Shown: in pieces, positions 14,877 through 38,637 of the stretch | Position numbering within the stretch: the first letter of the stretch is position 1 | How the letters are laid out: each line of letters starts with the position of its first letter | From: Amycolatopsis bullii | Lineage (GTDB): Bacteria; Actinomycetota; Actinomycetes; Mycobacteriales; Pseudonocardiaceae | Assembly (NCBI RefSeq): GCF_014654205.1 | Contig: NZ_BNAW01000051.1 | Location: 1 to 64,000 of the forward strand | Reading direction: 5' to 3' | Length of the DNA stretch: 64,000 bases | Made by a program: the position numbers and the translations under genes | The notes under the pieces: generated by a model | Seen by the model: only the letters and a program-made list of their open reading frames with translations | The model's database searches: none | What the model was told of the DNA's origin: nothing

Positions 14877-15953
14877 ATGCGGGAGTCGGGTGCGGACCGG
14901 CGAAGGCGGATCCTGGCCGTGGTGGAGGCGCGCGGCCAGGCGCGGGTCACCGAACTCGCCACGGAGCTGGCGGTCTCGGTGATCACCGTGCGCCGGGACG
15001 TCGAGGAGCTGGCCAGGGCCGGGCGGCTGCGGCGGGGCCACGGCGTCGTCCGCTCGCTGGTTCCGCGGCGGCCGGAGCCGGCGCCCGCGGCGGCCGGTGG
15101 CGGGCCGGTGGTGCTGGTCGTTCCCGAGCGCCACGCTTACCTCACCGAGGTCCTGCACGGGGCCCGTGGCGCGCTGGAGGAGGCTGACGTCCGGGTCGTG
15201 CTGCACCCGGCGCCGCAGGTTCCCGGCGCCGAGCGGCTGATCGTCGAGCGGCTGCTCGCCGACGACGCCGGGGGTGTGCTCATCGCGCCGCGCTGGCGCA
15301 GCGTGGGCACCGAGGAGGCGGACGACGGCTGGCTGGCCGCCGCCGACGTCCCGGTCGTCCTGATGGAACGGCGGCCGCGGCCGGGAAGTGCGTTGCACGC
15401 CCGGGATTCCGTCTGCACTGACCACTGGTACGGCGTCCACCTCGCCGTGACGCACCTGCTTGCGCTGGGCCACCGGAGGATCGTCCTGGCCGCGCGCGAC
15501 GACAGCCCGACCGCGCGGGCGCTGCGCGCGGCGTTCACCGGCATCTGCACCGGACGGCCCGAAATCGAGGACTGGACCGTGGTGCTCAGCGCGCCGGGCG
15601 CCGGTCAGGAGCCGGTGCGAGACCTCGAGCCGCTCGCCGATGTGCTGCGCGAGCACGCCGCGACGGGCGTGATCATGCACGGCGACGTCGATGCCCTGAT
15701 GCTCGTCCAGCAGCTGGCGGACGCGGGGATCATGGTGCCCGACGACTGTTCGGTGGTGGCCTACGACGACGTCGTGGCCGCGTTGGGCAGCACGCCGTTG
15801 ACCGCGATCGCGCCGCCCAAGGCCGAGGTCGGCAGGCTGGCCGCGGGGCTGCTGCTGGAGCGGCTGCGCGGACCGGCGGGACGGCCGCCGCGGCGGATCG
15901 CCGTGCTGCCTGAGCTGAAGGTGCGTGGGTCGACGCGGCCGCTGATCGATTGA
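14877..15953 (+). CDS. Sugar-responsive regulator: DeoR-type HTH joined to LacI-type sensor
   Basis: 358 aa, ATG start. Residues 5-60 form a DeoR winged helix (RRRRILAVVEARGQARVTEL, then SVITVRRDVEELARAGRL). Residues about 80-350 are a LacI/periplasmic-binding-protein sensor (HLLALGHRRIVL, then DCSVVAYDDVVAALGSTPLT). The DeoR-reader/LacI-sensor combination is known in actinobacteria and usually binds a sugar. It lies directly upstream of and co-directional with the ABC importer operon, which it presumably controls. Ligand unknown; an oligosaccharide from arabinogalactan or pectin is the contextual guess. Confidence 0.9.
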   Translation: MRESGADRRRRILAVVEARGQARVTELATELAVSVITVRRDVEELARAGRLRRGHGVVRSLVPRRPEPAPAAAGGGPVVLVVPERHAYLTEVLHGARGALEEADVRVVLHPAPQVPGAERLIVERLLADDAGGVLIAPRWRSVGTEEADDGWLAAADVPVVLMERRPRPGSALHARDSVCTDHWYGVHLAVTHLLALGHRRIVLAARDDSPTARALRAAFTGICTGRPEIEDWTVVLSAPGAGQEPVRDLEPLADVLREHAATGVIMHGDVDALMLVQQLADAGIMVPDDCSVVAYDDVVAALGSTPLTAIAPPKAEVGRLAAGLLLERLRGPAGRPPRRIAVLPELKVRGSTRPLID

Positions 15954-15978
15954 CCGAGTTGGTCGGGGCTATTGACCG
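15949..15978. promoter_or_regulatory. Direct repeat ATTGACCG x2 before the ABC operon
   Basis: ATTGACCG occurs at 15949-15956 and 15971-15978, spaced 22 bp (two helical turns), spanning the regulator stop and the 79-bp gap before the binding-protein gene. Regular spacing suggests an operator or activator site; no binding evidence. Confidence 0.35.
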
Positions 15979-16032
15979 GAATTCGTTCAGGCGCCCAAAC
16001 TGCGGGGAGTTCGCGACCCGCAGGAGGCATCG

Positions 16033-17340
16033 ATGCCTGTCCGACCCAGCCGCCGGACCGTGCTCGCCGCGGGTCTCGCCTGGCCGCTGGCTGCCGCGTG
16101 CTCGAGCGCCGGCGGGGACGCTCCGCGTGGTGCCACCCGGATCACCTTCTGGTCGGCGCTGCGGGGCAGCCAGCAGGTCGTGGACGCGTTCAACCGCTCG
16201 CAGAACCGGATCCACGTCGTGTTCCAGCAGATCCCGTCCGGAGACCAGGGCGGGTACGCGAAGCTGAGCAATGCGGTCCGCGCGGGCAACGCCCCGGACA
16301 TCGCCACCATCGAATACCCGCAGGTGCCCGGGTTCGCCATCGACGGCGTGGCCAGGGACATCACCGATCTCGTCTCCGAGCGCCTGCGTGCGAAGCTCCT
16401 CCCGCAGGCACTGCGCCTGACGACGTTCGCCGGGCGCGTGTTCACCGTGCCGCTGGACGTCGAGCCGATGGTGCTGCACTACCGCACCGATCTGTTCGCC
16501 CGGCACGGTTCGGGCCCGCCGCGCACGTGGGACGAGTTCACGGCGGTGGCCCGCAAGGTCCGCGACGACCGGCGCCGGCTGGTGGCCTTCGCGACCGACG
16601 GGGCGACCCAGTTCGCGGCGGTCTCCTGGCAGGCGGGCGCGCAGTGGTTCGACACCGCGGGCGGTGCTTGGAACGTCTCGCTCGCCGACGCCGCGACCCG
16701 CCGCGTGGCCGGGTACTGGCAAGGCTTGATCGACGAAGGTCTCGTGTTCGCGAACGGCGTGCAGGGCAGGCAAGGGGACGCGCAGATCGGGCAGGGGCTG
16801 GTGCTGGCCCGGCTCAGCGGCGCCTGGGACGCGGGCGCGCAGATGAAGGCCCGGCCGGGCCAGAAGGGCCAGTGGGCGATCGCGCCGCTGCCCCAGTGGG
16901 ATCCCGCGGACCCGGCGGTCGGGACGCACGGCGGCTCGACCTTCGCCGTCACCCGCGACAGCGCGCATCCGGAAGCCGCGATGGAGTTCATCGAATGGCA
17001 GGTGTCGCACCCCGACGCGTTGCGCGCCCGGCTCTCCAGCGGCACCAGCAGCCAGTACCCCGCCGCGCCGGACCTGGTCGAGGTCGGTCGGAAGGCGTTC
17101 GACCGCCGCTACTACGGCGGCCAGGACGTCTACCGGCTGTTCGAGGCCGAGGCCGCGAAGATCCGGGACGGCTGGACGTGGGGACCGCGGATGAGCGCGA
17201 CCCAGCGAGTCCTGCAGGACGGGTTCGCCCGGGCGAGCGCCGGCCAGGGCACCCTCCTGGAAGCCGTCCGCGACGCCCAGCGCGCCACCATGCCGGACCT
17301 GATCGCCCTGGGGCTGGCGACCACCGAGCACAGCAGCTGA
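16033..17340 (+). CDS. Sugar ABC transporter substrate-binding lipoprotein
   Basis: 435 aa, ATG with GGAGG 8 bp upstream. A Tat/Sec-like leader (RRTVLAAG) ends in a lipobox with Cys23 (PLAAACSS), so the protein should be lipid-anchored outside the membrane. The body matches family 1 extracellular binding proteins (ITFWSALRGSQQVVDAFN, NAPDIATIEYPQVP, then TWDEFTAVARKV). It is first in an operon with two permeases (12-bp gap). No ATPase gene is in the operon, as usual for actinobacterial CUT1 importers that share an MsiK-type ATPase. The substrate is probably an oligosaccharide released by the enzymes downstream. Confidence 0.93.
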   Translation: MPVRPSRRTVLAAGLAWPLAAACSSAGGDAPRGATRITFWSALRGSQQVVDAFNRSQNRIHVVFQQIPSGDQGGYAKLSNAVRAGNAPDIATIEYPQVPGFAIDGVARDITDLVSERLRAKLLPQALRLTTFAGRVFTVPLDVEPMVLHYRTDLFARHGSGPPRTWDEFTAVARKVRDDRRRLVAFATDGATQFAAVSWQAGAQWFDTAGGAWNVSLADAATRRVAGYWQGLIDEGLVFANGVQGRQGDAQIGQGLVLARLSGAWDAGAQMKARPGQKGQWAIAPLPQWDPADPAVGTHGGSTFAVTRDSAHPEAAMEFIEWQVSHPDALRARLSSGTSSQYPAAPDLVEVGRKAFDRRYYGGQDVYRLFEAEAAKIRDGWTWGPRMSATQRVLQDGFARASAGQGTLLEAVRDAQRATMPDLIALGLATTEHSS

Positions 17341-17352
17341 CGAAGGAGACCG

Positions 17353-18303
17353 ATGACGACGACACTCGCGCGTCCGGAAAGCGCTTCCCGGACGCCCGCG
17401 CCGCGTGTCCGGAAGAGAAACCGGCAGGGCGCCGCCTGTGCTGTGTTGATGGCCCCCTTCTTCGTGCTGCTGGTGGTGGTCTTCCTGGTCCCGGCCGGGA
17501 CGGCGCTGTGGCTGAGCTTCTTCGGCGCCGACGAACCGGGTCTCGGGTTCGGCCCGGAGCACACGATCTTCGTGGGCTTGCGCAGCTACGTCGCCGTGCT
17601 GGCCGATCCGACGTTCCTCAATGGACTGTGGGTCGTCGCGCTGTACTGCCTGCTGTACCTGCCGCTGCTGGTCGTCGCCTCCCTCGGCCTGGCGCTGCTG
17701 CTCGACTCGGGAGCCGCGCGGCTGCGGGCGTGGGCGCGGCTCGCGCTGTTCCTGCCGCACGCGGTGCCCGGTATCATCGCCGCGATCATCTGGCTCTACC
17801 TCTACATCCCGGGCCTGAGCCCGGTGGTGGACCTGTTCGGCCGGGCCGGGATCACGATCGACTTCCTCGGCGTCCACACGGTCATCCCGTCGATGGTGAA
17901 CATCGCGTTGTGGAGCAATCTCGGCTACAACGTCGTCGTCTTCTACGCCGCTTTGCAGGCCGTGCCGCGCGAGGTGATCGAGGCGGCGGTGGTGGACGGC
18001 GCCGGCGGTGTCCGCAGCGCGCTGTGGATCAAGACGCCGATGATCCGCGCGTCGATCGTGATGGTCGTGCTGTTCACGCTGATCTGGTCACTGCAGCTGT
18101 TCACCGAGCCGATGCTGCTCTCACAGGCCACGCCGATGATCACCGCGCGGTTCTCGCCGAGCATGTACATCTACGACGCCGCGTTCACCCGCAACAACTA
18201 CGGGCTCGCCGCGGCCGCGTCGGTGATCCTGCTGGCCTGCACGATTGCGCTGTCCTACGGCGTCACGCGCTGGGCCAACCGCACCCGGAAGGTGGCCGCG
18301 TGA
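17353..18303 (+). CDS. Sugar ABC transporter permease (MalF/UgpA type)
   Basis: 316 aa. Six membrane segments are visible, and the cytoplasmic EAA loop reads EVIEAAVVDGAGGVRSALWI, which docks the ATPase. ATG 17353 has AAGGAGA upstream. A near-palindromic 22-bp sequence centred on AAGCGCTT (about 17372-17393) lies inside the first codons and resembles the LacI-type operators found elsewhere in this locus. The gene overlaps the next permease by 4 bp (GTGA). Confidence 0.93.
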   Translation: MTTTLARPESASRTPAPRVRKRNRQGAACAVLMAPFFVLLVVVFLVPAGTALWLSFFGADEPGLGFGPEHTIFVGLRSYVAVLADPTFLNGLWVVALYCLLYLPLLVVASLGLALLLDSGAARLRAWARLALFLPHAVPGIIAAIIWLYLYIPGLSPVVDLFGRAGITIDFLGVHTVIPSMVNIALWSNLGYNVVVFYAALQAVPREVIEAAVVDGAGGVRSALWIKTPMIRASIVMVVLFTLIWSLQLFTEPMLLSQATPMITARFSPSMYIYDAAFTRNNYGLAAAASVILLACTIALSYGVTRWANRTRKVAA

Positions 18304-19142
18304 ACCCGCCGAAGCTCCTCGGCCGCGCGGCCGTCAACACCGTCGTCGCGATCTCCGTGCTCTACACCCTGCTGCCGGCGTTGTGGCTGGTGCTCGCCGC
18401 GGCAAAGGACCGGGACGCGTTGTTCGGCAGTAACATCCTTTCGCTGCAGGGATTCTCGCCGCTGAAGAACCTGCAGGACCTGTTCGCCATGGACAAGGGG
18501 ATCTACGGCCGCTGGTACCTCAACAGCCTGCTCTACGCGGTCGGCGGCGCCGCGGTCGGCGCGCTGGCGAGCATCGCCTGCGGCTACGCGTTCGACAAGT
18601 ACCACTTCCGGCACAAGGAAAAGCTGTTCGGGCTGGTCCTCGCCGCGGTCATGGTGCCGCAGACCGTGCTCGCGCTCCCGCTGTACCTGCTCGCCTCCCG
18701 CACCGGCGTCGTCGACACGGTGTGGGCGGTGCTCGTCCCGGTGCTGTTCAACCCCTTCGGCGTCTACCTCAGCCGCGTGTTCAGCCAGGGCTACGTGCCC
18801 GGCGAGGTTCTGGAGGCGGCGCGGATTGACGGCGCGGGGGAGCTGGCGACCTACTTCAAGGTCTCGCTGCGGATGCTCGGCCCCGGCGTGGTCACCGTGT
18901 TCCTGTTCCAGCTCACCGCCATCTGGAACAACTTCTTCCTGCCCATGGTGATGCTCTCCACCCAGAAGCTGTACCCCGTCAGCCTCGGCCTCTACAGCTG
19001 GAACAGCGCGGCCACGACGTCGCCCGAGTACTACCCGGTGGTGATCATGGGCTCGCTGCTGGCGGTCCTGCCGCTGGTGCTGGCGTTCGCGCTGCTGCAG
19101 CGGTTCTGGCGCTCGGGGCTGACGGCGGGGGCGGTCAAGTGA
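18300..19142 (+). CDS. Sugar ABC transporter permease (MalG/UgpE type)
   Basis: 280 aa from GTG 18300, overlapping the previous stop. It has six hydrophobic segments and the EAA loop EVLEAARIDGAGELATYFKV, typical of the second CUT1 permease. The C-terminus overlaps the next gene by 4 bp (GTGA), so the operon is translated as a tight unit. With the preceding permease it would form the import channel. Confidence 0.93.
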   Translation: MNPPKLLGRAAVNTVVAISVLYTLLPALWLVLAAAKDRDALFGSNILSLQGFSPLKNLQDLFAMDKGIYGRWYLNSLLYAVGGAAVGALASIACGYAFDKYHFRHKEKLFGLVLAAVMVPQTVLALPLYLLASRTGVVDTVWAVLVPVLFNPFGVYLSRVFSQGYVPGEVLEAARIDGAGELATYFKVSLRMLGPGVVTVFLFQLTAIWNNFFLPMVMLSTQKLYPVSLGLYSWNSAATTSPEYYPVVIMGSLLAVLPLVLAFALLQRFWRSGLTAGAVK

Positions 19143-20143
19143 GCCGTGCCCGCGCCGCGATCGCGATGGCTCCCCGGACCGCGGCGGCAGTGCTCGACGA
19201 CGGCGCGATGACGGCGTTGCGCCGCGTCTGCGACCTCGCCGACGGAGTGCTCGACGACTTCGCGAGCCCCTCGGCCCCCGCCGTCTTACACGACGTCGAG
19301 CTGCTGGTCACCGGCTGGGGCTGTCCGCCGCTGGGCCCGGCCGTGCTCGCTCGCGCGCCGCGGCTGCGGGCCGTCGTGCACACCGCCGGCTCGGTCCGCG
19401 GGCACGTCACCGAAGCGTGCTGGGAGCGGGGGATCGCGGTGACGTCCGCCGCGGCGGCCAACGCGGTGCCGGTGGCCGAGTACGCCGTGGCGATGATCCT
19501 GCTCTCCGGCAAACGCGTCCTGGAGCGGGCGCGCGACTACCGGGCGGCCCGCCGCCGCGACGACCCCCTGGCCGTGCCGCGGCACCTGGGCAACCACGGC
19601 CGGACCGTCGGAATCCTGTCGGCGTCGATGATCGGACGGCGGGTGATCGGCCTGCTGCACCCGCACGACTTCCGCGTCCTCGTGCACGATCCCCACCTGA
19701 ACGCCGCGGAGGCGGCTGAGCTCGGCGCGGAAGCGGTGAGCCTGGCCGAGCTGTTCGCCCGCAGCGACGTCGTCAGCGTGCACACCCCACTGCTGCCCGA
19801 AACCCGCGGGCTGGTCGGGCGCGAGCTGATCGCTTCGATGCGGCCGGACGCCGTGCTGATCAACACCGCCCGCGGGGCCGTCCTCGACCAGGACGCGCTG
19901 GCCGAGGCGACCGGGACCGGCCGGATCCGGGCGATCCTCGACGTCACCGACCCGGAAGTACTGCCACCGGGACATCCCCTGTGGACGGACGACAACGTGC
20001 TGATCACCCCGCACCTGGCCGGCTCGCAGGGCAACGAGCTGCGGCGGCTCGCCGAGCTGGCCGTCGCCGAGGTCACCCGCTGGGCGGCTGGGCAGGCCTT
20101 CGCCCACCCCGTCCACCGCGAACGCCTGGGGATGATCGCGTGA
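19139..20143 (+). CDS. D-2-hydroxyacid dehydrogenase, NAD(P)-binding
   Basis: 334 aa, GTG start inside the permease stop. It follows the D-isomer-specific 2-hydroxyacid dehydrogenase plan: an N-terminal catalytic half, then the NAD-binding core (TVGILSASMIGRRVIGLL), INTARGAVLDQDALAEA, and the C-terminal catalytic His in LITPHLAGSQGNELRR. The nucleotide motif lacks the canonical GxGxxG third glycine (GILSASMIG), seen in some divergent members of sugar operons. It probably reduces or oxidises a sugar-derived acid; the substrate is not predictable. Confidence 0.85.
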   Translation: MSRARAAIAMAPRTAAAVLDDGAMTALRRVCDLADGVLDDFASPSAPAVLHDVELLVTGWGCPPLGPAVLARAPRLRAVVHTAGSVRGHVTEACWERGIAVTSAAAANAVPVAEYAVAMILLSGKRVLERARDYRAARRRDDPLAVPRHLGNHGRTVGILSASMIGRRVIGLLHPHDFRVLVHDPHLNAAEAAELGAEAVSLAELFARSDVVSVHTPLLPETRGLVGRELIASMRPDAVLINTARGAVLDQDALAEATGTGRIRAILDVTDPEVLPPGHPLWTDDNVLITPHLAGSQGNELRRLAELAVAEVTRWAAGQAFAHPVHRERLGMIA

Positions 20144-21996
20144 AGCTGCCCGGCGAAGACCGCACGCTGAGCCCGTACACCGGGTACACGCGCGACCACT
20201 GGGTCGCCGTGGCGGACGGCCTCCTGACGGCGGCGTGGCACTGGGCCACCCCGGGTGGTGCCCGGCTCGACCTGCCGGGGCCGCCGTCGGGCAGCGGCGT
20301 CCGCTCGGACGGCCTGGAAGGCTTCGCCCGGACCTTCCTCGCCGCCGCCTTCCGCGTCACCGGGGAGGACGGGAAGGACCCGCACGGCTGGCTCGAGCGG
20401 TACGCCGGGGGACTCGACGCGGGCACCCGCACGCCGGGCCGCGACGACGCCGAGTCGTGGCCGGTCATCGGCGACCACCACGTCGCCGGCCAGCCGATGG
20501 TCGAGTCGGCGTCGGTCGCCCTCGGGCTCCGGCTGACCCGGCCCTGGCTGTGGGACAACCTCGCGCCCGCCGTGCAGGACCGGATCGAGGCGTGGCTGCG
20601 CGGCGCGCTGCGCCACGTCCCAGCGCCGAACAACTGGTACCTGTTCCCCTTCACCGTGGCCGGGTTCCTCGCCTCGGTGGGGCGCGGCGAGACCGAGACG
20701 GCTCGAGCCCGCGACCGGGCGCTGGAGCTGCTGGAGAGCTGGTACCGCGGGGACGGCTGGTACGCCGACGGCGACGGCCGCGCCTTCGACCACTACAACG
20801 GCTGGGCGTTGCACCTGTACCCGGTGCTGGACGCCCACCTCGCCGGCGAGGAGACCCGGTTCGGCCCCCGGCTGAGGGAGCACCTGGACAGCTTCGGGCT
20901 GTGGTTCGGCGGCGACGGCGCGCCGCTCCACTTCGGACGATCGTTGACCTACCGCTTCGCGGCCGCGTCGGCGGTCGGCCTCGGCGCCGTCACCGGGAAC
21001 ACGCCGTTACGGCCGGGCGTGTCACGACGGCTGATCAGCGGGGCGCTGCGCTACTTCCTCGACCGCGGCGCCGTCGACGAGCACGGACTGCTGAGCCTCG
21101 GCTGGCACGGACCGCACGCGCACACGGTGCAGTACTACTCCGGACCGGGCTCGCCCTACTGGGCGTCGAAGGCGTTCGTGTGCCTGCTCGCACCCCCGGA
21201 TCATCCACTGTGGACGGCGACCGAGGAACCGGCGCCGAGCGAGACCGCCGACGCGGTGCTCGCCCTGCCGGCGCCGGGCCTGCTGCTGCAGTCGACCCGC
21301 AGGGACGGCGTCGTCCGGCTGCACAACCACGGCAGCGACCACGTCCGGCCGCACGAAGCCGAGTCGGCGGCCGAGGACAACCCGCACTACGGCCGGTTCG
21401 CCTACTCGACCCGGACCGGGCCGACCGCGCGGGGCAACCCGGCGGACAACCACTTCGCGGTCGTCGTCGCCGGCGTGCGCAGCGTCCGGCGGCGGGTCCA
21501 CCCGCTCGGGGTGGGCCAGGCCGGAGGCTGGGGCTGGGCGGCGTCCTGGCACCGTCCGGTGTTCGGCCGCGGCCCGGCGACGGTACCCGGCCTGCGCGTC
21601 GAGAGCGTCACCGTCGTCCGCGGATCGGACGAGCTGCGGGTACACCGCGTCCTCGGCGCCCCTCCCGGCGCCCGCGTCGAGCAGACGGGCTGGGCGACCG
21701 CGCCCGGTGAGTCCGTGCTCCGGCCGCTGTCCGGCTGGACAGGCCGGGACGAAGTCCGCGCTCCGCACGGCACGGCCTTCCTCCCGTGGGTGTCACTCCC
21801 ACGGCTCACCGGGGACGTCCACGGCACGGCGGTCGTCGTCGCGCTGGCCGCGTTGGGTGCCGAGCCGCGCGACCCGGTTGCCTCGGTCACCGAAGAAGGA
21901 GCCGAGATCGGGTGGCCGGACGGGTTCGCGGTGCAGATCCGGTTCGGACCGCTGCGCGTGCGCGTGGACCCGGTGCGGTCAATGCCAGGGGGTTGA
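20140..21996 (+). CDS. DUF2264 family protein
   Basis: 618 aa, GTG start overlapping the previous stop by 4 bp. Residues about 10-360 match the DUF2264 alpha/alpha-barrel-like domain (WPVIGDHHVAGQPMVESAS, PNNWYLFPFTVAGFLA, then GWYADGDGRAFDHYNGWALH). A C-terminal beta-rich part follows, reminiscent of polysaccharide lyases and GH88/105-type helpers. No signal peptide is visible, so it likely acts on imported oligosaccharides in the cytoplasm. DUF2264 genes recur in glycan-use loci but have no settled activity; lyase or unsaturated-uronyl hydrolase activity is speculation. Confidence 0.85.
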   Translation: MKLPGEDRTLSPYTGYTRDHWVAVADGLLTAAWHWATPGGARLDLPGPPSGSGVRSDGLEGFARTFLAAAFRVTGEDGKDPHGWLERYAGGLDAGTRTPGRDDAESWPVIGDHHVAGQPMVESASVALGLRLTRPWLWDNLAPAVQDRIEAWLRGALRHVPAPNNWYLFPFTVAGFLASVGRGETETARARDRALELLESWYRGDGWYADGDGRAFDHYNGWALHLYPVLDAHLAGEETRFGPRLREHLDSFGLWFGGDGAPLHFGRSLTYRFAAASAVGLGAVTGNTPLRPGVSRRLISGALRYFLDRGAVDEHGLLSLGWHGPHAHTVQYYSGPGSPYWASKAFVCLLAPPDHPLWTATEEPAPSETADAVLALPAPGLLLQSTRRDGVVRLHNHGSDHVRPHEAESAAEDNPHYGRFAYSTRTGPTARGNPADNHFAVVVAGVRSVRRRVHPLGVGQAGGWGWAASWHRPVFGRGPATVPGLRVESVTVVRGSDELRVHRVLGAPPGARVEQTGWATAPGESVLRPLSGWTGRDEVRAPHGTAFLPWVSLPRLTGDVHGTAVVVALAALGAEPRDPVASVTEEGAEIGWPDGFAVQIRFGPLRVRVDPVRSMPGG

Positions 21997-22688: not shown

Positions 22689-24101
22689 TCAGCCGAGCCG
22701 GAAGTCGGCCACCCGGATCGGCGAGGGTGTCGTCCCGCTCGAGTTCTGCTGGTACAGCACGGAGATCACGCCGTCGGTGGCCAGCCGCGAGTCGTCGACG
22801 TCGACCTCGCCGAACGCGTTCAGGTCCGGGCTGTACACCGTCTTCCAGTCCGTCCAGCCGCTCGCCTTGGTGGCCGCGACGATCCGCCCGTACGGCATGA
22901 CGAGGTAGGCGTTGTCGCCGCGGTCGAAGACCAGCTTGGTCCGCTGGGTGGATTCGGGCGCGACCGGCACCTCGCGCTTGGTCCAGCTGCCGTCGGCCGC
23001 CCGGCTGAGGAAGAAGGTCCGGCCGTACTGCTTGCGCTGCGCGGAGTAGTTCGTGACGCACTGGGTGAACCGGCCGGGGACGTAGCTGATCACCGCGTGC
23101 GGCTGCCCGGCGGAGTCGACGGCCTGGCTCTCCTGGTTCATCAGCGCGTGGTCGACGCCGAGCGGGTCGACCACCGTTCCCGGCGACGACACGGACACCG
23201 GCGTGCCACCCGTCGTCGCGACGACCGCGCCGGCGTTGGTGCGCCAGGTCCGGCCCCGGTCGTCGCTGTAGACGTAGCCGGTCTCGTGGTTGGCCAGCCC
23301 GCCGGAGTGGCACAGCACGCCGGAGTTGCCTTCGCGCCAGGTGAAGGTGGCGTGCAGCCGCCCGCCGGGTCCGTAGGTGATGCCGTGCAGGTACATGTTG
23401 CGCGTGGTGCTGGTGACGCTGTTGCCCGACGTCCACGCGCCGGTCGCCGACGACCACTTCCCCAGCTTGCGCCAGCTGCCCCCGCTGAACTCCGCGAGCT
23501 CGTTGGTGCCGTTGCCCGAGGCGCCGGTCCGGTAGCTGAGCTGCAGCTTGCGCTCCGGAGTGACGACGAACTGCGGGTAGGTGATCGCCCCGAGGTCGAC
23601 GCCGTTCAACGTCCGCTGCACCGGCCCGAACGCCGACGACGTCCAGGCGTGCGCCGCGGGCGCGGACAGCAGCCCGGCCACCGACTCGGCGTAGTAGACC
23701 TGGTTGCCGTGGGTGTCCATGGCCACGTGCAGCCGGCCGTCCTCCGGCGAGACACCCATCGAGATGACGTTGTGGGAGTCATCCACGGTCAGCTTGTGCG
23801 GCAGCGCGACGGTCTGCCACGCACCCGCGCCCGCGGCCCGCCGGGCGACCACGGCGCTGCGGTCGGCGGTGTACCAGGCCGCGTACTGGTAGCCCGCGTA
23901 GGTGAAGATGCCGCTCTGCTGGAAGGAGTCGTTGTTCACCAGCCCGTCGTAGGAGACGAAGTACAGCGCCTTGGCGTCGAGCTGGGTGTCGGCGATCTTG
24001 ACGACGGACACGGCCGCCTCGGCGGGCGCGGCGGGCAGCAGCGGCAGCGCCGCGGCCGCCAGCACGCCCAGCATGCGAGAAAACGCCTTCTTGGCAGCCA
24101 T
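22689..24101 (-). CDS. Secreted BNR_4 beta-propeller protein (PL24/PL42/GH145-like fold)
   Basis: 470 aa. ATG 24101 is preceded by AAGGAG. A Sec signal peptide (residues 1-29, ending PAEAA) precedes a single propeller domain with the BNR_4 hallmarks (DDSHNVISMGVSPEDGRLHV and MDTHGNQVYYAES, then ITYPQFVVTP and YRTGASGNGTNELAEF). Characterised relatives act on rhamnose-glucuronate linkages: ulvan lyases, a gum-arabic rhamnose-glucuronate lyase, and GH145 rhamnosidases. In a locus aimed at arabinogalactan, removing terminal Rha-GlcA caps is a sensible but unproven role. It lies downstream of GH30 with a 303-bp gap. Confidence 0.8.
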   Translation of the reverse strand: MAAKKAFSRMLGVLAAAALPLLPAAPAEAAVSVVKIADTQLDAKALYFVSYDGLVNNDSFQQSGIFTYAGYQYAAWYTADRSAVVARRAAGAGAWQTVALPHKLTVDDSHNVISMGVSPEDGRLHVAMDTHGNQVYYAESVAGLLSAPAAHAWTSSAFGPVQRTLNGVDLGAITYPQFVVTPERKLQLSYRTGASGNGTNELAEFSGGSWRKLGKWSSATGAWTSGNSVTSTTRNMYLHGITYGPGGRLHATFTWREGNSGVLCHSGGLANHETGYVYSDDRGRTWRTNAGAVVATTGGTPVSVSSPGTVVDPLGVDHALMNQESQAVDSAGQPHAVISYVPGRFTQCVTNYSAQRKQYGRTFFLSRAADGSWTKREVPVAPESTQRTKLVFDRGDNAYLVMPYGRIVAATKASGWTDWKTVYSPDLNAFGEVDVDDSRLATDGVISVLYQQNSSGTTPSPIRVADFRLG

Positions 24102-24117
24102 GACAACTCCTTCATGA

Positions 24118-29227: not shown

Positions 29228-29245
29228 TCCTTGGGTGTGGAATGG

Positions 29246-32034
29246 CTAGCCGGCGACGGCGACCGCGTCGACGACCAGGGCGCCGCTGCGTACCTTGATT
29301 TGAATGGTGTGTCTGCCATACGTGAGCCCGCGAAGGCTGAAGGTCTGGGAGAACTCGGCCGACGCCGTCGTGCGGGCCGAGCTGTCGGCGATGCGCCCGT
29401 CGACGGTCGTCTCGAGCACGGCCGAGCCGTCGTTGGGGCCGGTGATGTCGAGTCCGGTTCCCGTGAAGGTGTAGCTCAGCGTCGAGCCGGATCCCTGGCT
29501 GGTGGACAGCGTCCGCTGGTAGGTGTACATGCTCTTGCCGCTTTCGTGAGCCCACTGCCCGCTGTAGACGAGCTTGGTGGCGGGCGGGGAGTTCAGGTCG
29601 GTCGTCTCCAGGTTGTCGAGCAGTTCGCTGTAGTACGGCGTGAAGCCGGCGAGGGTGCGGACTCGGAGGTTGTCGAACCTGGTGTGGTAGTAGCCGCTGC
29701 CGAGCTCGACGCGGCCGGGGAGCCGGGGAGCCGGATCGGTGTACCTGGCGAGGGTGACACCGTCCAGGGATGCGGTCACCTCACTGCCGGCGGCTTTGAG
29801 GGCGAGCTTGTGCCAGGCGTTGTAGGTGGTGTCGAAGCCGGCAATCCCGACGCCGCCGGAGCCACTGACCACGTTGCCGCCGGCTGCCGGCTTGTTGTCG
29901 ACGATCAGCTGCCAGCCGCCGTCGAACGTGAACTTCAGCTTGTAGGGCGCGCCGACGTCGCCGTGCTGCTGCCGGACCCCGAGGACCGCGTAGTTCGCGC
30001 CGTCCTGGAGAGCATCCTTTTCGAACGAGACGTCGATGGCGGCCTCGTAGTTCAGCCACCGGCCGTCACCGATCCGGGTGACCGGATCGCCGCCGTTCCA
30101 AGCGTCGCCGAGCCCGTCGACCGACTTGTCGAGCTGCTGGCGGAGGACGTAGTTGCTCGACCGCTCCGGCCGATAGGCCTCGAAGGCACCGTTGCGATCG
30201 CTGGTGTACCGCGGTATTGCGCTCTCGGATCCGCCGCGGGCCGCGACGAAGTCCTCGCTTCCCACGATCGCGCCGCCGGTCCCGAGCACCGGAGTTCGCT
30301 TGCCGGTGTAGTCGAAGCCGTCCGCGTACAAGGTGTCGTCCCCGGGGTGGTCACCCGAACCGGAAGTGTCGGTGTCCAGCACGGTTCGCGCGCCCTCCAC
30401 CGGCAGCGGTGCCCGGTACGCCGGGTTCGTGTGCCGCGCCAATGTCGTCACGGTGACCACCGAGTACGGCTTGACCGTGACGGTGTACCCGCCGTCGGAG
30501 CCGGGGGTGACGTGGCCGAGGTACTTCAGGTAGTTGACGTTGAAGGCCTGACCGGGATCCGCCGCCCGCGTCTCCCACGTTTCCAGGGCCGGCGTCCCGG
30601 CGCAGGCCATGTTGACGGTGCTGATGCGGTAGGCCTGCGGGTACTCGCTGTCGTTCATGAAGACCGTCGAGAAGTTCCGCTTGTCCGGAGCGGCCAGCGT
30701 CAGGTAGCTGGGGGTGCCGTTGCGCCCGTTGACGGGGTTCGTGCCCGCCGCCCCGGTGTGGCTCGCCTGAGGGACGGCTCGCCAGACTCCCGCGGTGTTG
30801 CCGGGGTTCTCCCAGCCGGTCTTCGCGAACCAGCTGAAGTGCCGCAAGATGTCGATGCCCACGTCGTAGTGCAGCCAGCCCGACCACGGGTCTCGCGCGC
30901 TGACGAGTTCCTTGAAGCCGTACTGCCCGCCTTCGTAGAAGGAACCGACGGCCGGCTGGTAGATGAAATTCGTCCGGTTGGAGTTGGTGAACCCCTTGAT
31001 GATGGTGTTGCCCATCTCCAGCGCGCTGTTCTTCCCGCCGATGCCGGTGCCCGCGACGGTCGGATCCTTCGTGTTGTTGTTCGGCCGGAAGGCCGAGTTG
31101 CCGAAGGTGGCCTGCGCTTCGCTGTTCCAGACCTCCTTGTCGAACACCTGCGCCAGTCGCTTGAAGTTTCCCGCGCTGTCGTCGTCCGGGTTGTAGTGGT
31201 ACCCGGCCACCGCGACGGCGTTGCGCAGCGCGGCGTCGTCCACCATCGCCCCGCCGAAGCTGCCCAGCCCGGCCTCGTCCGAGATCACCACCTGAATGCG
31301 GTTGTACTGTGCCCGTTCGGCGCCGTTGGCGAAGCCGGCTGCGTCCGTCCTGACCAGACTGGCGTACCGCTCGCTCCAGGTCAGGTCGGGTGGGTGTTCG
31401 TTGAGCCCCGGGTTGACGTAGTCGACCATGAATCCGTAGGTGCGGTACGCCTCGAGGATCGTCTTCTTGTACCAGGTGTAGACCTTGTCGTTGTCGGTCA
31501 CCCATGCGGGTGCGTTCCAGCGCAGCAGGCTCACCTTGAGCGCGGGGTTCACCTTCTTCGCGTCCGCCGCCAGCTGGAACCCCTGATCCCGCTTGACGTT
31601 CGGCTTCTCGCCTTCCGTCCGCATGGTGGCCGGATCCGGCCCGGTGGAATTGTTCCGGTCGTTGCCCATCTCGATCTTCACGTTCGTCAGTACCGGACTC
31701 GGTCCGCCGAACAAGATCCGGAGGAGCTCTGCGTAATTGCCCGGATGCTGGGCCTTGTAGTCCATCAGCAGCTCGCTCGTGCTGTTCGCGCTGAGCATGC
31801 CGAACCCTTGAAGGTGAGGCCGTTGACGTTCCCGGCCTTGATGTCGTTCCCGTCGAGTACGATCCCGGTGCCTGCCTCGGCCGCGCTCACCGGCGTGTCG
31901 ATCACCGGCCCGGCGATGACGGCCGCCACGAAGAGCGCCGACGCACACAGCACCGCGCGGGGAAGGCGGACGAGAGCCGCCGGGACTCGGGCGGATCCGC
32001 GGTCCGGCGGAGCTGAAGCGGGTCGGCGGTGCAC
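29246..32034 (-). pseudogene. GH59 galactosidase-like enzyme with a single-base frameshift
   Basis: GTG 32034 (GGAG upstream) starts a signal peptide (AVLCASALFVAAVIAG, cleavage near VSAAEAG) and reads to VNGLTFKG. At about 31803-31806 one T is missing, and the frame must shift to read FGMLSANSTSELLMDYK onward, continuing for about 850 residues. The body matches GH59 galactocerebrosidase-like proteins: VKIEMGND, acid/base Glu in NPGLNEHPPD, nucleophile Glu in KEVWNSEAQATF, ARDPWSGWLHYDV, then beta-jelly-roll/lectin-like domains. Without the shift only about 90 residues are made. It is first in the minus-strand operon. A sequencing error is possible; otherwise it is inactive. Confidence 0.8.
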
Positions 32035-32208: not shown

Positions 32209-32222
32209 GGAAAGCGCTTTCA
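32209..32222. promoter_or_regulatory. LacI-type operator upstream of the minus-strand enzyme operon
   Basis: GAAAGCGCTTTC (32210-32221) is a perfect 12-bp palindrome of the kind bound by LacI-family carbohydrate regulators. It lies 176 bp upstream of the GH59 start. A matching, longer site occurs at 33765-33778 before the plus-strand set. Confidence 0.6.
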
Positions 32223-32698: not shown

Positions 32699-33330
32699 AT
32701 GAGCGTGCCGGGAGACCGTTCCGCGGTGGGGTGGCCACGCCGGACGCTGCCGGTCGGTGCGGGTGCGGTGATCGCCGCCGCCGGTTCGGCGGCGCTGTCG
32801 TCCGGCACCGCCGGCGCGGCAACGCGACATCGGGTGATCGCCGGGCACCACGCCGACCCGTGGGTGACGCGCTTCGGTGATCGGTACTCCCTCTCTCCGG
32901 CCACGGACGGCGCCCGGGCTTGGCGGGGACGTCGGTCCATTCCTCTCCGATCGATCCCTCGGTGTTCGCCGACGCGAACGGCAGCCCGGACCTGTACTTC
33001 GGCAACGGAACCTGCTTCGTCGTCCGGCTCGGGCCGGAGATGCTGTTCTTGAGCGGCAGCCCACCCGCAACGGCGTCTACTCCCTGATTTGGTCCGGGGA
33101 CGCCAGCCAAGGCCACCGGGAACCCCGTGGTCAAGCGGAACCCGTCGGCGGGCATCCTCGCCACTGGCAGCAGCTGTGCCTTCCGGCGGCCCGGGGCCGA
33201 CGAGTGGTCCATCGCCTGCCACCGGTTCAAAAACCCGGGCGGAGACGGGCAGCGCCGGAAAGTCGGCAATCGACCGCCTCTTCTTCTTCGACGCCGGCGG
33301 CAGCATCAAGCCGGTCGTGTCCCCCATTGA
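32699..33330 (+). pseudogene. Broken GH43-type glycosidase gene
   Basis: ATG 32699 starts a Tat-like leader (RRTLPVGAGAVIAAAG) and VIAGHHADPWVTRFGDRYSL. The sense then moves between frames: PSVFADANGSPDLYFGNGT, then NPSAGILATGSSCAFRRPGA, WSIACHRFKNPGGDGQRR and IDRLFFFDAGGSIKPVV. These are successive conserved blocks of GH43 enzymes, with roughly a hundred residues missing and at least three frame changes. It points away from the minus-strand operon and is surely non-functional. Confidence 0.75.
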
Positions 33331-33764: not shown

Positions 33765-33778
33765 AGAAAGCGCTTTCT
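33765..33778. promoter_or_regulatory. LacI-type operator upstream of the plus-strand enzyme set
   Basis: AGAAAGCGCTTTCT is a perfect 14-bp palindrome 157 bp before the CE12 start, sharing its 12-bp core with 32210-32221. It probably gives coordinated repression of both enzyme sets. Confidence 0.65.
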
Positions 33779-33935: not shown

Positions 33936-34988
33936 ATGTCTCTCAAACGCCAAGCCGTCGTTCTGGCCGGGATGGCGGTAGTCGCCCTGGCGCCGGTTCC
34001 GTCGGCGGTGGCAGCGCCGTCGGCGTTGCCAGCGCAGTGTTCGGGGACGGCGCCGATCAAGTGCCACTTCGACGTCTCGCCGGGCAACTACGACGTCACC
34101 GTCGGGCTCGGCAGCTCCGCGAAGTCGGCGAACACGTCGATGTCGGTCGAGGCACGCCGGCAGATCCTGAACGCCGTCTCGACGAGCGCGGGCGAGGTGG
34201 TCCCGACCACGGTGACGGTCAACGTGCGCAACCCCGAGGGACAGCCCACCGGCCAGGGCGGCACCGGGACGCCAGGCCTGGACATCACCTTCGCCGGCAG
34301 CGCGCCCGCGATCACCTCGTTGACGGTGACCGCGGCCACGTCACCGCTGGTCGCGTACATCGCGGGCGACTCGACGGTGTGTGACCAGATGCTCGCGCCG
34401 TGGACGGGGTGGGGGCAGGAGTTGCCGGCGAATGTCCGCAACGGTGCCGTGGTCGCGAACTACTCGGACTCCGGCGAGAGCTCGGGGAGCTTCCTGTCCA
34501 ACAGTGCGTTGTTCCCGCGGATGAAACCGTTGATCAAGAGCAAGGATCTGGTGTTCATCCAGTTCGGGCACAACGACAAGCAGACGACGGCGACGGCGTT
34601 CCGGGACAACCTGACCAAGCTGGTCAACGGGGTGCGGGAACGTGGTGGGGTGCCGGTGCTGGTGACGCCGCCGGTGCGACGGCAGTTCAGCGGGACCAAG
34701 CTGACTCCGACCGCGTTGCACGTCAACGGCAAGGGTGTGGACCTGCCCGCGGTGATCCGGGCGCTGGGCAGCAGTGCGAACGTGCCGGTGATCGACCTGA
34801 CGGCCAAGAGCAAGGCCCTCGTGGAGTCGCTCGACCCGTCCGCGTCGCAGAAACTCTACCTGACCCAGGCCACGGACGGCGTCAAGGACAACACGCACTT
34901 CTCGGTGTACGGCGCGACGCAGATGGCGAACCTGGTCTTGGAGGGCATCCGCGAAAAGAACCTTTCTCTCGTCGCCTACCTCCGCTGA
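33936..34988 (+). CDS. Secreted rhamnogalacturonan acetylesterase (CE12 type)
   Basis: 350 aa; ATG 33936 was chosen because AGGAG lies 6 bp upstream. Signal peptide 1-26 (cleavage near AVAAPSA). Residues 30-135 form the beta-sandwich extension often seen in bacterial enzymes. The SGNH domain has Ser146 in AGDSTV, the FGHND block (210-214) and a C-terminal DNTHFSVYGA with the catalytic Asp/His pair. It removes acetyl groups from rhamnogalacturonan I or related pectin, exposing the backbone. First gene of the plus-strand set. Confidence 0.9.
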   Translation: MSLKRQAVVLAGMAVVALAPVPSAVAAPSALPAQCSGTAPIKCHFDVSPGNYDVTVGLGSSAKSANTSMSVEARRQILNAVSTSAGEVVPTTVTVNVRNPEGQPTGQGGTGTPGLDITFAGSAPAITSLTVTAATSPLVAYIAGDSTVCDQMLAPWTGWGQELPANVRNGAVVANYSDSGESSGSFLSNSALFPRMKPLIKSKDLVFIQFGHNDKQTTATAFRDNLTKLVNGVRERGGVPVLVTPPVRRQFSGTKLTPTALHVNGKGVDLPAVIRALGSSANVPVIDLTAKSKALVESLDPSASQKLYLTQATDGVKDNTHFSVYGATQMANLVLEGIREKNLSLVAYLR

Positions 34989-35010
34989 ACGAAAATTCTG
35001 GAGTGAACGA

Positions 35011-36345
35011 ATGAAACCCGTTGTCCTGGGCCGGACCCTCGTGTTTTCGGTGGCTGTGGTGGCCGCTGCCGCGATCGCCGGCACTCCGGTGGCCGCCGCT
35101 GGGCCCGCGGCCGCGACCACCTACTACGTCGCGCCGTCGGGCAGCGACAGCGCCGCCGGGACGCAGGCCGCCCCGTGGGCATCGATGGCCCACGCCCAGG
35201 CCGTCGCGAAGCCGGGCGACACGGTCTACCTCCGGGGTGGCACCTACGTGTACTCGCGCGCGAACAAGAGCTGTGCCAGTCAGACCGACCGGGTGGACGC
35301 GATCACCCTGAACAAGAGCGGCAGCTCGGGCAGCCCGATCCGGTACTGGGCCTATCCGGGGGAGAAGCCGGTGTTCGACTTCTCCCGGATGAAGGACGAC
35401 TGCCGGATCGAGGGTTTCGACGTCACCGGCAGCTGGATCCACCTCAAGGGCCTGGAAGCCAAGGGCGTGCCCCAGAACAACAACCGCAACCACGAGTCGT
35501 GGGGCATCTGGATCTCGGGCAGCAACAACACCTTCGAGTTGATCGAAAGCCACCACCACATGGGGGCCGGTCTGTTCATCCAGAACGGCGGCCACAACCT
35601 CGTCCTCAACTCCGACTCGCACGACAACTACGACCTCCGCACCTCCAACGGCGCAGGGGAGAGCGGTGACGGATTCGGCGCGCACATCTCCGCCGGCAAC
35701 CCCGGCAACGTGTTCCGCGGATGCCGGGCGTGGTGGAACTCCGACGACGGGTTCGACCTGATCAGCGCCTACTCGCCGGTGACCATCGAGAACTCCTGGG
35801 CGTGGCGCAACGGGTACGTGCCGGGGACCACCACGGCCGCGGGCAACGGAAACGGCTTCAAGGCGGGCGGCTACGGCGGCAACTACGACTCCGGAGCCGT
35901 CAAGCACACCGTCCGCAACTCGGTGGCGTTCCTCAATAAGGCGGCGGGCTTCTACGCCAACCACCACCCTCTCGCCAACGACTACTTCAACAACACCGGT
36001 TACGGCAACAATCCCGACTTCAACATGCTCGGTGTCAGCACCAGCGGCGCGGCCGTCGGACGGGGCAACCTGCGCAACAACATCGCCTACACGGGCACCC
36101 TCACGTCCAACATGAACGGCACGAACGCCGCGAACAACTCCTGGAACCTCGGCATCGCCCTGTCGGACGCGCAGTTCCAGAGCGTGTCGACGACCGGCTG
36201 GGAGTCGGCACGCCAAGCCGACGGCAGCCTGCCCGTGCGGCCCGGCCTCCGGCTCGCCGCGAGCAGCAGCCTGATCGACAAGGGCACCGACGTCGGATTG
36301 CCGTACAACGGGAAGGCGCCGGACCTGGGTGCCTTCGAATCCTGA
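35011..36345 (+). CDS. Secreted pectate lyase-type beta-helix (PL9)
   Basis: 444 aa, 22 bp after CE12. Signal peptide about 1-35. A right-handed parallel beta-helix follows, starting TTYYVAPSGSDSAAGTQAAP. The PL9 active-site pattern is present: Ca2+ ligands Asp220, Asp245, Asp246 and Asp249 (SGDGFG and WNSDDGFD) and the catalytic Lys284 in NGNGFKAGGYGG, with spacings close to those of characterised PL9 enzymes. It would cleave polygalacturonate or rhamnogalacturonan by beta-elimination outside the cell. Confidence 0.88.
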   Translation: MKPVVLGRTLVFSVAVVAAAAIAGTPVAAAGPAAATTYYVAPSGSDSAAGTQAAPWASMAHAQAVAKPGDTVYLRGGTYVYSRANKSCASQTDRVDAITLNKSGSSGSPIRYWAYPGEKPVFDFSRMKDDCRIEGFDVTGSWIHLKGLEAKGVPQNNNRNHESWGIWISGSNNTFELIESHHHMGAGLFIQNGGHNLVLNSDSHDNYDLRTSNGAGESGDGFGAHISAGNPGNVFRGCRAWWNSDDGFDLISAYSPVTIENSWAWRNGYVPGTTTAAGNGNGFKAGGYGGNYDSGAVKHTVRNSVAFLNKAAGFYANHHPLANDYFNNTGYGNNPDFNMLGVSTSGAAVGRGNLRNNIAYTGTLTSNMNGTNAANNSWNLGIALSDAQFQSVSTTGWESARQADGSLPVRPGLRLAASSSLIDKGTDVGLPYNGKAPDLGAFES

Positions 36346-36413
36346 ACCGGTACACCGGGAGCGCGGAAGGCCGGATGAATCGCCGATTGTCCGTCCCAAA
36401 CGAAGGATACGAA

Positions 36414-37931
36414 ATGGTGATCAAAATTTCCCAGCGAATGATCGTCTCGGCGCTGGTTCCGCTGGTACTGGCGCTGACGCCGGTCGGCGGCTCCGCCAGT
36501 GCCACCGCGGCGACTCCGGCGCCGCAGGTGGCCGCGGCGGCCACGATCCAGAACGACGTGTTCTGGAAGGACACCGCCGGGAACCCGATCTATTCCCAGG
36601 GCGGAGGTGTGCTGAAGGTCGGCGACACGTACTACTGGTACGGGGCGAAGTACAACGGCGCGGTCACGTACTACAACAACCCCTCCGCCGGGAAAAACGG
36701 CAACACTTCCTTGAGCGCGATCACGATCTATTCGTCCACCGATCTGGCCAACTGGAAGTTCGAAGGCAACGCGATGACCGCCTCGGACCTCGGGGGAGCG
36801 GGCTGGGTCGGCCGGATCGGGGTCGCGCGCAACCCCAACACGGGCAAGTACGTGCTGATCTCCCAGCTCAACAGCGAGCTGGTGTTCGCCACGAGCAGCA
36901 CGCCGAACGGCCACTTCACCCGGGCGGCCACCCAGTCGAACATCGCCAACGTCACCACCGGCATGTCCGGTGACCAGTCGGTCTTCGTCGACGACGACGG
37001 AAAGGCCTACCTGGCCTTCAGCAACAAGAGCGGCCGGTCGCACCTGTACGTCGCGGCGCTGCGGCCGTCGGACTACCTGCAGGTCGAACCCGCCGCGAAC
37101 ATCTACAACAGCTCCGCGGGCGGGCGTGAAGGCAACATCATGTTCAAGTACAACGGCACCTACTACTTCTGTTCCTCGGACCTGCACGGCTGGAACGCGT
37201 CCCACACGTACTGCAACACGTCGAAGAAGGTGTCGAGCGGATACGGCCCGGAGTTCGTGATGCAGGGCACGGACGCCGACTTCTCGCACGTGACGCAGAC
37301 CGGCCTGGCGTTCACGGTGACCGGCTCGCAGGGGTCGTTCGTGATGTTCGGCGGGGACCGCTGGAGCGACTTCGCCGGCAACGGCATCGGCTACAACGAC
37401 TGGGTGCCGGTGACGTTCAACGGCTCGACGCCGGTGTTCCACTCGCTCAGCCAGTGGAACGTCGACGCGGCCGCGGGCACGTGGTCGGTCGGCAGCGGCA
37501 ACAACTACGTGCTGAACCCGAGTGCGGAGGCCGACCGGGTGGCCCAGAACGACCTCGCCGGCTGGACCACCACCGGCGGTGCGGTGAACAGTAACAAGCA
37601 GGGCGGGCACACCGGGCGCTGGGCGTTCGCGCAGAGTTCGTCGTCGGCGTACAACGCCAGCAGGTACCAGAACATCTCGCTGCCGAACGGGACGTACACG
37701 CTGTCGGCGTGGGTGAAGAGCAGTGGCGGGCAGAAGAAGGCGACCATCTTCGCGAAGAACTTCGGAGGCAGTGAGCTGAGCTCGTCGATCAACCGGTCGA
37801 TCGGTAGTTGGACGAAGGTGACGATCTCCGGCATCACGGTGACCAACGGGTCGATCCAGGTGGGCGTGTCCTCCGACGCGAACGCGGGCAACTGGGTGAA
37901 CGTCGACGACTTCAGCCTGGTGCAGGGCTAG
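36414..37931 (+). CDS. Secreted GH43_24-type exo-beta-1,3-galactanase with C-terminal CBM-like domain
   Basis: 505 aa. ATG 36414 is preferred over ATG 36375 because GAAGGA sits just upstream. Signal peptide about 1-32. The five-blade propeller carries the signatures of galactan 1,3-beta-galactosidases (GDTYYWYGAKYNG, GREGNIMFKYNGTYYFCSSD and the following LHGWNAS). Residues about 365-505 form a beta-sandwich with NYVLNPSAEAD and an ending WVNVDDFSLVQG, typical of CBM4/9/CBM35-like modules. The expected role is to strip galactose from the beta-1,3 backbone of arabinogalactan, bypassing side chains. Confidence 0.88.
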   Translation: MVIKISQRMIVSALVPLVLALTPVGGSASATAATPAPQVAAAATIQNDVFWKDTAGNPIYSQGGGVLKVGDTYYWYGAKYNGAVTYYNNPSAGKNGNTSLSAITIYSSTDLANWKFEGNAMTASDLGGAGWVGRIGVARNPNTGKYVLISQLNSELVFATSSTPNGHFTRAATQSNIANVTTGMSGDQSVFVDDDGKAYLAFSNKSGRSHLYVAALRPSDYLQVEPAANIYNSSAGGREGNIMFKYNGTYYFCSSDLHGWNASHTYCNTSKKVSSGYGPEFVMQGTDADFSHVTQTGLAFTVTGSQGSFVMFGGDRWSDFAGNGIGYNDWVPVTFNGSTPVFHSLSQWNVDAAAGTWSVGSGNNYVLNPSAEADRVAQNDLAGWTTTGGAVNSNKQGGHTGRWAFAQSSSSAYNASRYQNISLPNGTYTLSAWVKSSGGQKKATIFAKNFGGSELSSSINRSIGSWTKVTISGITVTNGSIQVGVSSDANAGNWVNVDDFSLVQG

Positions 37932-37969
37932 CCGGGTCGCCGCACGCCGCCGTTCCGCCGGCGGTGAAC

Positions 37970-38027
37970 CCACCCGATGTGGCGTTCGGTGCGCTGGGAG
38001 GGACACACGGGACGCCACATCGGGTGG
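37970..38027. terminator. Long perfect inverted repeat after the GH43_24 gene
   Basis: CCACCCGATGTGGCGT (37970-37985) pairs with 38012-38027 over 16 bp across a 26-nt loop, 38 bp after the stop. It is probably a terminator or an intergenic palindromic repeat; such CGATGTGGCGT palindromes look like a dispersed element. Confidence 0.6.
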
Positions 38028-38191
38028 TGAGCCGGGAGCCGTTGCCTTGTCCAGCACGGCCTCGAGGCCGTCCGCGGCCAGGCGCGTCGAGGCGTGCCAC
38101 GCCCGCGCCGTGGCTGAGCGGGTTGCGCGCCACCGCCTGGCCGTCGGCCGCCGGCCCGTCTCCACAGGACTAGGCGTGGATCTTGCCTGAC

Positions 38192-38260
38192 TGTGGACGT
38201 TCACGGGAAATTGTCGAACAGCCTTGAAAATTTCCCACCGGTGCGGTTCCAATCATTCAC
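38192..38260. promoter_or_regulatory. Control element upstream of GH53, partly shared with CE12
   Basis: GTGGACGTTCAC (38192-38203, one mismatch from a palindrome) is followed by ACAGCCTTGAAAA and GCGGTTCCAATCATTCAC. These blocks recur at 33594-33671 with the palindrome on the other side. Confidence 0.4.
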
Positions 38261-38339
38261 CCCGACCCTATGTAGCCGATTGTTTGCATTCATCGCGTAT
38301 CGTTCCCGCATTGTCACGTCGTCGATCAGGGGAGATCGA

Positions 38340-38637
38340 ATGACCGCGTACCGCACCGGCCGCACCGCGAAGTCCGCCGTGTTCCTGGCGGCGGTCATCC
38401 TTTCCGTGGTGCTCCCCGCACCCGCCGCTTCGGCGGCGAACACGCTCACCGTACTGGGCGCAGACGTCTCGACCGCCCAACGAGCGCTCGATTCCGGTGC
38501 GAAGTACTCCGACGCGAACGGAATTGCGGGAGATCCGCTCGACATCCTCAAGGGTGCCGGCGTGAACTACGTGCGCCTGCGCGTCTGGAACAACCCGCGC
38601 AGCGGCTACAACAACAAGGCCAAGCTGCTGCAGCTGG
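38340..38637 (+). pseudogene. GH53 endo-beta-1,4-galactanase, N-terminal stub
   Basis: ATG 38340 after GGGGAGA. A signal peptide (residues 1-33, ASAANT) is followed by LGADVSTAQRALDSGAKYSD, DPLDILKGAGVNYVRLRVWN and SGYNNKAKLLQ, the conserved start of GH53 barrels. Both catalytic Glu residues should come later, but similarity stops at about 38637, where DNA of a conjugative element begins in antisense. The gene is cut after about 100 of roughly 350 residues. An upstream promoter region remains. Confidence 0.85.

Follow-up and report, generated by a model that had tools for sequence, protein, structure and literature searches.

The first 64,000 nucleotides of contig NZ_BNAW01000051.1 from Amycolatopsis bullii (the window; the contig is C51 of a 9.38 Mb genome) hold, between positions 14877 and 38637, a group of genes that probably serves the utilisation of type II arabinogalactan capped with rhamnose and glucuronate. 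This role would be carried by a BNR_4 protein, a GH30 enzyme, a DUF2264 protein and an importer, and is combined with an arm for pectin and galactan comprising a CE12-like esterase, a PL9 lyase and a GH43 enzyme. The genes form three units: an importer operon with its regulator on the forward strand (14877-21996), a secreted set on the reverse strand running from GH59 to BNR_4 (32034-22689), and another secreted set on the forward strand (33936-38637). All family calls derive from sequence searches against Pfam, NCBIfam and PDB chains, and these bore out the families given in an earlier, sequence-only reading for the regulator, the CUT1 importer, the 2-hydroxyacid dehydrogenase, DUF2264, BNR_4, GH30, SGNH, GH59 and PL9. 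The role in arabinogalactan and pectin breakdown proposed in that reading is plausible, with all substrates, uptake, regulation and pathway order inferred. It is backed by the active-site residues of the BNR_4 and DUF2264 proteins, the match of the GH30 enzyme, the recurrence of partial combinations in actinobacteria, and a rare palindrome preceding both secreted sets. The part of the claim concerning type I arabinogalactan is weak, as its GH53 is a stump and the intact GH53 lies elsewhere in the genome (contig C11).

The secreted BNR_4 protein (22689-24101, reverse strand; PF15892, 284.6 bits) is strongly predicted to be a PL42-type L-rhamnose-alpha-1,4-D-glucuronate lyase, a prediction that offers the widespread actinobacterial BNR_4 family a specific and easily tested activity. 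Its best solved match is FoRham1 from Fusarium oxysporum, a lyase of this kind (112 bits), whose active-site residues have had their roles assigned in PMC10951650. Ten of the eleven residues checked are kept (D83, H85, H105, Y150, R166, Y202, R220, N275, Q276 and R331), as read by hand off the alignment, where chain numbers equal the numbers of the paper plus 2; the His-His-Asp triad, Tyr150 and Arg166, by which membership of PL42 was judged, are all present. Hydrolysis of the GH145 type is disfavoured: His48 of BT3686, named as the posterior residue of such hydrolases in extracts of PMC8377490, falls at FoRham1 Tyr34, and this position is Tyr here. The score against the NCBIfam equivalog for BT3686 is 101.6 bits, below the cut-off of 700. 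Within the genus, the protein shares 87-93% identity with its counterparts in A. rifamycinica, A. kentuckyensis, Amycolatopsis sp. MtRt-6 and A. pretoriensis.

In contrast to FoRham1, to which the similarity is remote, the protein is bacterial and many of its relatives adjoin genes for L-rhamnose catabolism. A gene cluster represented by an L-rhamnose isomerase (664 bits, cut-off 531) is found in 41 of 80 related BNR_4 loci, and isomerase, RhaD or RhaS clusters in 43. The gene caller was custom-made and placed a clustered BNR_4 gene in 73 of the 80 loci, and recovered DUF2264 in 45 of the 54 stretches described below, so that gene-based counts are lower bounds. Since the 80 loci, kept from 118, had been chosen by similarity, an even class sample of 345 genomes was used as well. 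In this sample, a RhaI match over the cut-off lies within 10 kb of 14 of the 25 strong BNR_4 places (E at or below 1e-60), at distances of 0.3-8.4 kb.

There is a good case for predicting that the DUF2264 protein (20140-21996, forward strand; PF10022, 342.6 bits) is a glucuronate dehydratase. It aligns to the beta-glucuronate dehydratase BcGDH (9o4u) and keeps all eight alignable active-site residues (N176, N177, W178, F181, Y229, R285, Y289 and Y354), while BcGDH E74 and R78 fall outside the alignment. Extracts of PMC12269599 describe these residues and propose the former GH154 family, to which DUF2264 proteins belong, as dehydratases, and those of PMC12943147 report that BT3677, of the DUF2264 family, requires earlier rhamnose removal by BT3686, of the BNR_4 family. 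By eye, a signal peptide was not seen on the protein. The rest of its operon encodes a regulator with a DeoR-type helix-turn-helix and a LacI-type sugar-binding domain (14877-15953; PF08220, 42.1 bits; PF13377, Peripla_BP_3, 106.7 bits), a CUT1 solute-binding protein (16033-17340; PF01547, SBP_bac_1, 143.2 bits), two BPD_transp_1 permeases (17353-18303 and 18306-19142; PF00528, 33.4 and 37.4 bits), and a D-isomer 2-hydroxyacid dehydrogenase, HDH (19139-20143; PF02826, 157.6 bits). The best solved chains for the solute-binding protein are 7vfq and the galacto-N-biose/lacto-N-biose binding protein 2z8d (126.6 bits).

DUF2264 occurs in 56 of the 345 genomes of the class sample. Neighbours were sought by tblastn in 54 stretches out of 78 DUF2264 places, namely the 53 with the highest scores plus the copy that this genome has on contig C55. 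Here a regulator of this kind and HDH were each found in 24, the permeases in 27 (permease 1) and 26 (permease 2), and the solute-binding protein in 10; among the enzymes, a GH43 related to GH43_24 was found in six, CE12 in five, GH30 in four and GH59 in one. In one locus (L170) regulator, solute-binding protein, permeases, HDH and DUF2264 are all 65-81% identical to those of the window. DUF2264 is also found in six of the 80 BNR_4 loci, two of which (L014 and L017) have the full set from regulator to DUF2264. The copy on C55 (L116) belongs to a second such set, which this genome carries besides that of the window and which shares 36-55% identity with it. An operator for the DeoR/LacI-type regulator was sought in 31 upstream regions, to which no palindrome is common; the best candidate occurs in five, four of them being two places fetched twice.

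The secreted GH30 enzyme (24405-25877, reverse strand) is predicted to be an endo-beta-1,6-galactanase. It matches the solved "secreted endo-beta-1,6-galactanase" 24td with 711 bits over residues 25-489, nearly the whole protein and far above any other solved chain, which makes it a candidate member of GH30_5. Its N terminus appears twin-arginine-like by eye. Among 120 relatives, GH30 is present in four genomes including this one; the only other from the same genus (G004) has it next to two GH43-AbfB genes. GH30 and a regulator of this kind occur together in five of the 80 BNR_4 loci.

Taken together, these proteins suggest a pathway in which the secreted BNR_4 lyase would use beta-elimination to cut L-rhamnose caps off Rha-alpha-1,4-GlcA, so that an unsaturated uronate is left, with side groups trimmed by GH43 and the esterases. 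The acidic oligosaccharides would then be taken up by the importer, and the remaining terminal glucuronate would be dehydrated by the cytoplasmic DUF2264 protein. The pectin/galactan arm would consist of the CE12-like esterase, the PL9 lyase and a GH43 that matches, at its C terminus, a module of a galactan enzyme (2xom). The closest known systems are the Bacteroides loci for arabinogalactan proteins, that of BT3686 and BT3677 and that of B. plebeius with GH145, GH105 and GH43_24, which resemble this one in bringing together relatives of BNR_4 (GH145/PL42) and DUF2264 (formerly GH154), as far as extracts of PMC12943147 and PMC8406133 describe them. Unlike them, the locus in Amycolatopsis has a CUT1 ABC importer instead of SusC, an HDH beside DUF2264, and pectin enzymes in the same locus, and no GH105 or GH88 was found in it. 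On this reading, actinobacteria would have their own version of the gut arabinogalactan pathway, in which the importer, and perhaps the uronate step as well, is of another kind. No account of the locus was apparent in searches of one open-access library, judged from titles and the beginnings of abstracts, and a search there for Amycolatopsis with gum arabic returned nothing.

The two secreted sets are further linked by the operator-like palindrome GAAAGCGCTTTC, found at 32210-32221, some 175 bases ahead of the GH59 set, and at 33766-33777, some 160 bases ahead of the CE12-like gene. The whole genome contains five copies, two of them in the window, and one copy of the reversed control. Allowing up to three mismatches, the window has six matches against 0.86 expected, a number reached by none of 100 shuffles, and of the 60 palindromes that can be formed from these half-site letters no other occurs in the window. 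On contig C7, a third site precedes a pectate lyase gene by about 60 bases; this second plant-glycan locus (L181) comprises two pectate lyases, a GH43 and a GH35. A LacI-type repressor acting on GAAAGCGCTTTC would probably govern both secreted sets, with the importer operon under its own DeoR/LacI-type regulator; one candidate for the repressor is a LacI-type gene, recognised by eye, beside the GH53 on C11 (L202). In 148 other loci (2.73 Mb), which partly overlap and are not all independent, GAAAGCGCTTTC occurs four times and each of the 59 other palindromes of the same half-sites once or not at all. Three of these occurrences were discarded as promoter sites, lying inside DUF2264 (L152), at the called BNR_4 start or just within it (L033) and inside an open frame (L008). 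The rare palindrome offers a handle on the regulon. Literature matches for it include papers on the cre-box and IolQ of Bacillus subtilis.

Several observations weigh against the proposed two-armed locus. The full enzyme set is found in none of the 80 related BNR_4 loci, and GH59 in none of them either, with flanks of up to 10 kb. BNR_4 was detected in none of the 54 DUF2264 stretches by tblastn; in one genome (G433) a distance of 13 kb separates them, which puts BNR_4 beyond the stretch that was taken. No GH88 or GH105 was found in the locus, the two strong ones of the genome being on contigs C9 and C69. Eleven of the 25 strong BNR_4 places, that of the window among them, have no RhaI within 10 kb, and the eleventh FoRham1 residue checked, Tyr26, is Phe in the BNR_4 protein. 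GH30 orthologues with 62-65% identity in genus g50, probably Streptomyces, stand alone, with no other enzyme of the window within about 8 kb in five of five stretches. As to regulation, the two remaining genomic GAAAGCGCTTTC sites stand before genes without a clear connection, one for a Gfo/Idh/MocA protein and one for a DUF993 protein. Of the four occurrences in the 148 loci only that in A. rifamycinica is clearly outside genes, so that this comparison says little about promoters. Finally, GAAAGCGCTTTC was not found before the importer operon, so that it speaks for common control of the two secreted sets but not of the three units together.

The case for GH59 and for the GH43 enzymes is weaker than that for the proteins above. 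GH59 (29246-32034, reverse strand; PF02057, 257.6 bits, cut-off 27) belongs to the family proposed in the sequence-only reading, except that it is not a single open frame: its N-terminal part (32034-31804) lies in one frame and the rest in another, with a single switch at 31804-31810. From there on, the downstream frame matches relatives in L189, L190 and L191; the upstream frame matches the one in L189 as well. The frame change may be real or an assembly error, and the gene is possibly broken. In the class sample, 27 GH59 places score 335-405 bits, five divergent ones score 214-272, among them that of the window, and the remainder 55 or less. A role on glycolipids, as in animal galactocerebrosidase, is possible if somewhat doubtful; GH59 would then be a mere neighbour in this locus. 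Its solved relatives are galactocerebrosidases, and no plant-glycan neighbours were recognised for the divergent relatives in L189 and L190. The other two of the four divergent relatives, however, stand in a different context, one next to a LacI-type gene and two GH43-like stretches, as recognised by eye (L191), the other next to DUF2264 and a regulator (L192).

The pectin/galactan arm begins with a secreted SGNH esterase (33936-34988, forward strand; PF13472, 48.9 bits; 2o14, E 7e-13), whose earlier assignment to CE12 holds weakly, as the match to the rhamnogalacturonan acetylesterase 1deo has an E of 1e-4 over 81 residues. It is followed by a secreted PL9 pectate lyase (35011-36345) carrying the Pel9A-like beta helix (PF22842, 225.5 bits), with 672.5 bits against PelN (cut-off 740), and by a secreted GH43 (36414-37931; 3vsf, 93.8 bits; 2xom, 44.3 bits over residues 360-503). 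The latter had been called GH43_24-like. It is a GH43 and shares the catalytic acid Glu and the Gln base with the GH43_24 exo-beta-1,3-galactanases 3vsf and Pc1,3Gal43A, but has Ala and Gly in place of Glu57 and Glu102 of subsite -1, which extracts of PMC7939473, also the source for the roles of the acid and the base, describe as fully conserved in the subfamily. Membership of GH43_24 was rejected on these two residues, and the protein is better placed in a clade beside it. A relative in L004 has the same Ala/Gly, those in L022 and L025 have Val/Gly, and both Glu are present in the remaining eight relatives that were aligned. Matching GH43 proteins are found in seven of the 80 BNR_4 loci. Elsewhere in the genome (C12:144125-145531) lies the gene for a GH43 that has every GH43_24 residue checked.

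The CE12-like and PL9 enzymes could also indicate a locus mainly for rhamnogalacturonan I and pectin, where BNR_4 would free rhamnose from rhamnogalacturonan-derived ends, DUF2264 would act on galacturonate, and GH30 and GH59 would trim pectic galactan. The five DUF2264 stretches with CE12, one RhgB_N (PL4-type) gene among 70 DUF2264 neighbours scanned, and the position of the third palindrome in a pectate lyase/GH43/GH35 locus are consistent with it. This explanation is nevertheless unlikely, because GH30 resembles an endo-beta-1,6-galactanase far more closely than any other solved chain, the best match of BNR_4 is a Rha-GlcA lyase, and six DUF2264 stretches have a GH43 related to GH43_24, with the canonical residues in the five that were aligned.

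The locus shows clear signs of erosion. The supposed GH53 enzyme (38340-38637, forward strand) turned out to be an N-terminal stump of about 100 residues, covering positions 2-69 of the 340 of PF07745 before continuing into other sequence, and was rejected as a working enzyme for want of a complete catalytic domain. An intact GH53 (C11:153517-154503) lies near a CE12-like copy with 83% identity. By eye, a small precursor peptide or mobile-element gene could not be established in the DNA beside the stump, one tested piece of which has no Pfam match. Between the secreted sets, at approximately 32837-33264 on the forward strand, fragments in two frames, with gaps and through a stop, align by blastx (E 1.2e-9 and 0.010) to a GH43 beside BNR_4 in Actinopolyspora biskrensis (L020:11486-12763; PF04616, 210 bits); single pieces of this decayed GH43-like gene have no Pfam match.

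The locus of A. rifamycinica keeps the GH43, CE12-like and BNR_4 proteins at 91-96% identity, and the block between them is not kept. In its place are 390 bases with 82% identity to the region upstream of GH59, including the palindrome, followed by 70 bases matching the alpha/beta hydrolase gene; another 55 bases, between the GH43 and CE12-like genes, match PL9. The simplest reading is that the middle block was lost in A. rifamycinica rather than gained in the window. The absence of this block, the decayed or frame-changed GH53, GH43-like and GH59 genes and the lack of the full set in any other locus examined might suggest a decaying historical assembly of unrelated enzymes without a single substrate, which is very improbable given the same rare palindrome before both secreted sets, one copy of it kept in A. 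rifamycinica, and the partial combinations that recur in other genera (L014, L017, L020, L022, L016 and L025), such as Streptomyces sp. SA15 (L022) with GH30, BNR_4, PL9, GH43, a regulator and part of the alpha/beta hydrolase.

A broader proposal can be made for actinobacteria, whose BNR_4 proteins would be secreted rhamnose-freeing lyases feeding an L-rhamnose operon, with DUF2264 working inside the cell together with a partner HDH and not with a neighbouring GH88/GH105; jointly, these statements have a rather low chance of holding. The partnership is suggested because HDH is so frequent in the DUF2264 stretches, is the commonest family (12) among the 70 neighbours scanned (67 of 90 direct neighbours and three second neighbours added by hand, with 25 of 51 families listed), and GH88 was found with two tblastn queries in none of the 54 stretches. 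If true, this would be an undescribed route to unlock uronate-capped oligosaccharides, with a branch of GH59 recruited to plant galactan.

The reverse-strand set contains three further secreted proteins: an SGNH/GDSL esterase with an uncertain start codon (25908-27146; PF13472, 102.3 bits), a GH43 resembling alpha-arabinofuranosidases (27191-28261) and an alpha/beta hydrolase (28337-29227). The last two are weak calls: the GH43 matches NF052546 with 215.8 bits out of a cut-off of 500 and has no Pfam or PDB match, and the hydrolase matches the chlorophyllase family PF07224 (31.9 bits) and the cutinase 4cg3 (E 6e-6). Across this set (24001-30000) the GC skew is high (0.16-0.22) and the AT skew negative. 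Elsewhere in the window, a fragment of a modular polyketide synthase runs off its start (1-5169, forward strand), and a ricin-type lectin domain fragment lies at 38988-39404 on the reverse strand, its apparent signal peptide seemingly in another frame by eye. A [2Fe-2S] domain fragment is found at 39975-40343 on the same strand, and similar genes are located near BNR_4 in three Saccharothrix loci (L015, L024 and L027).

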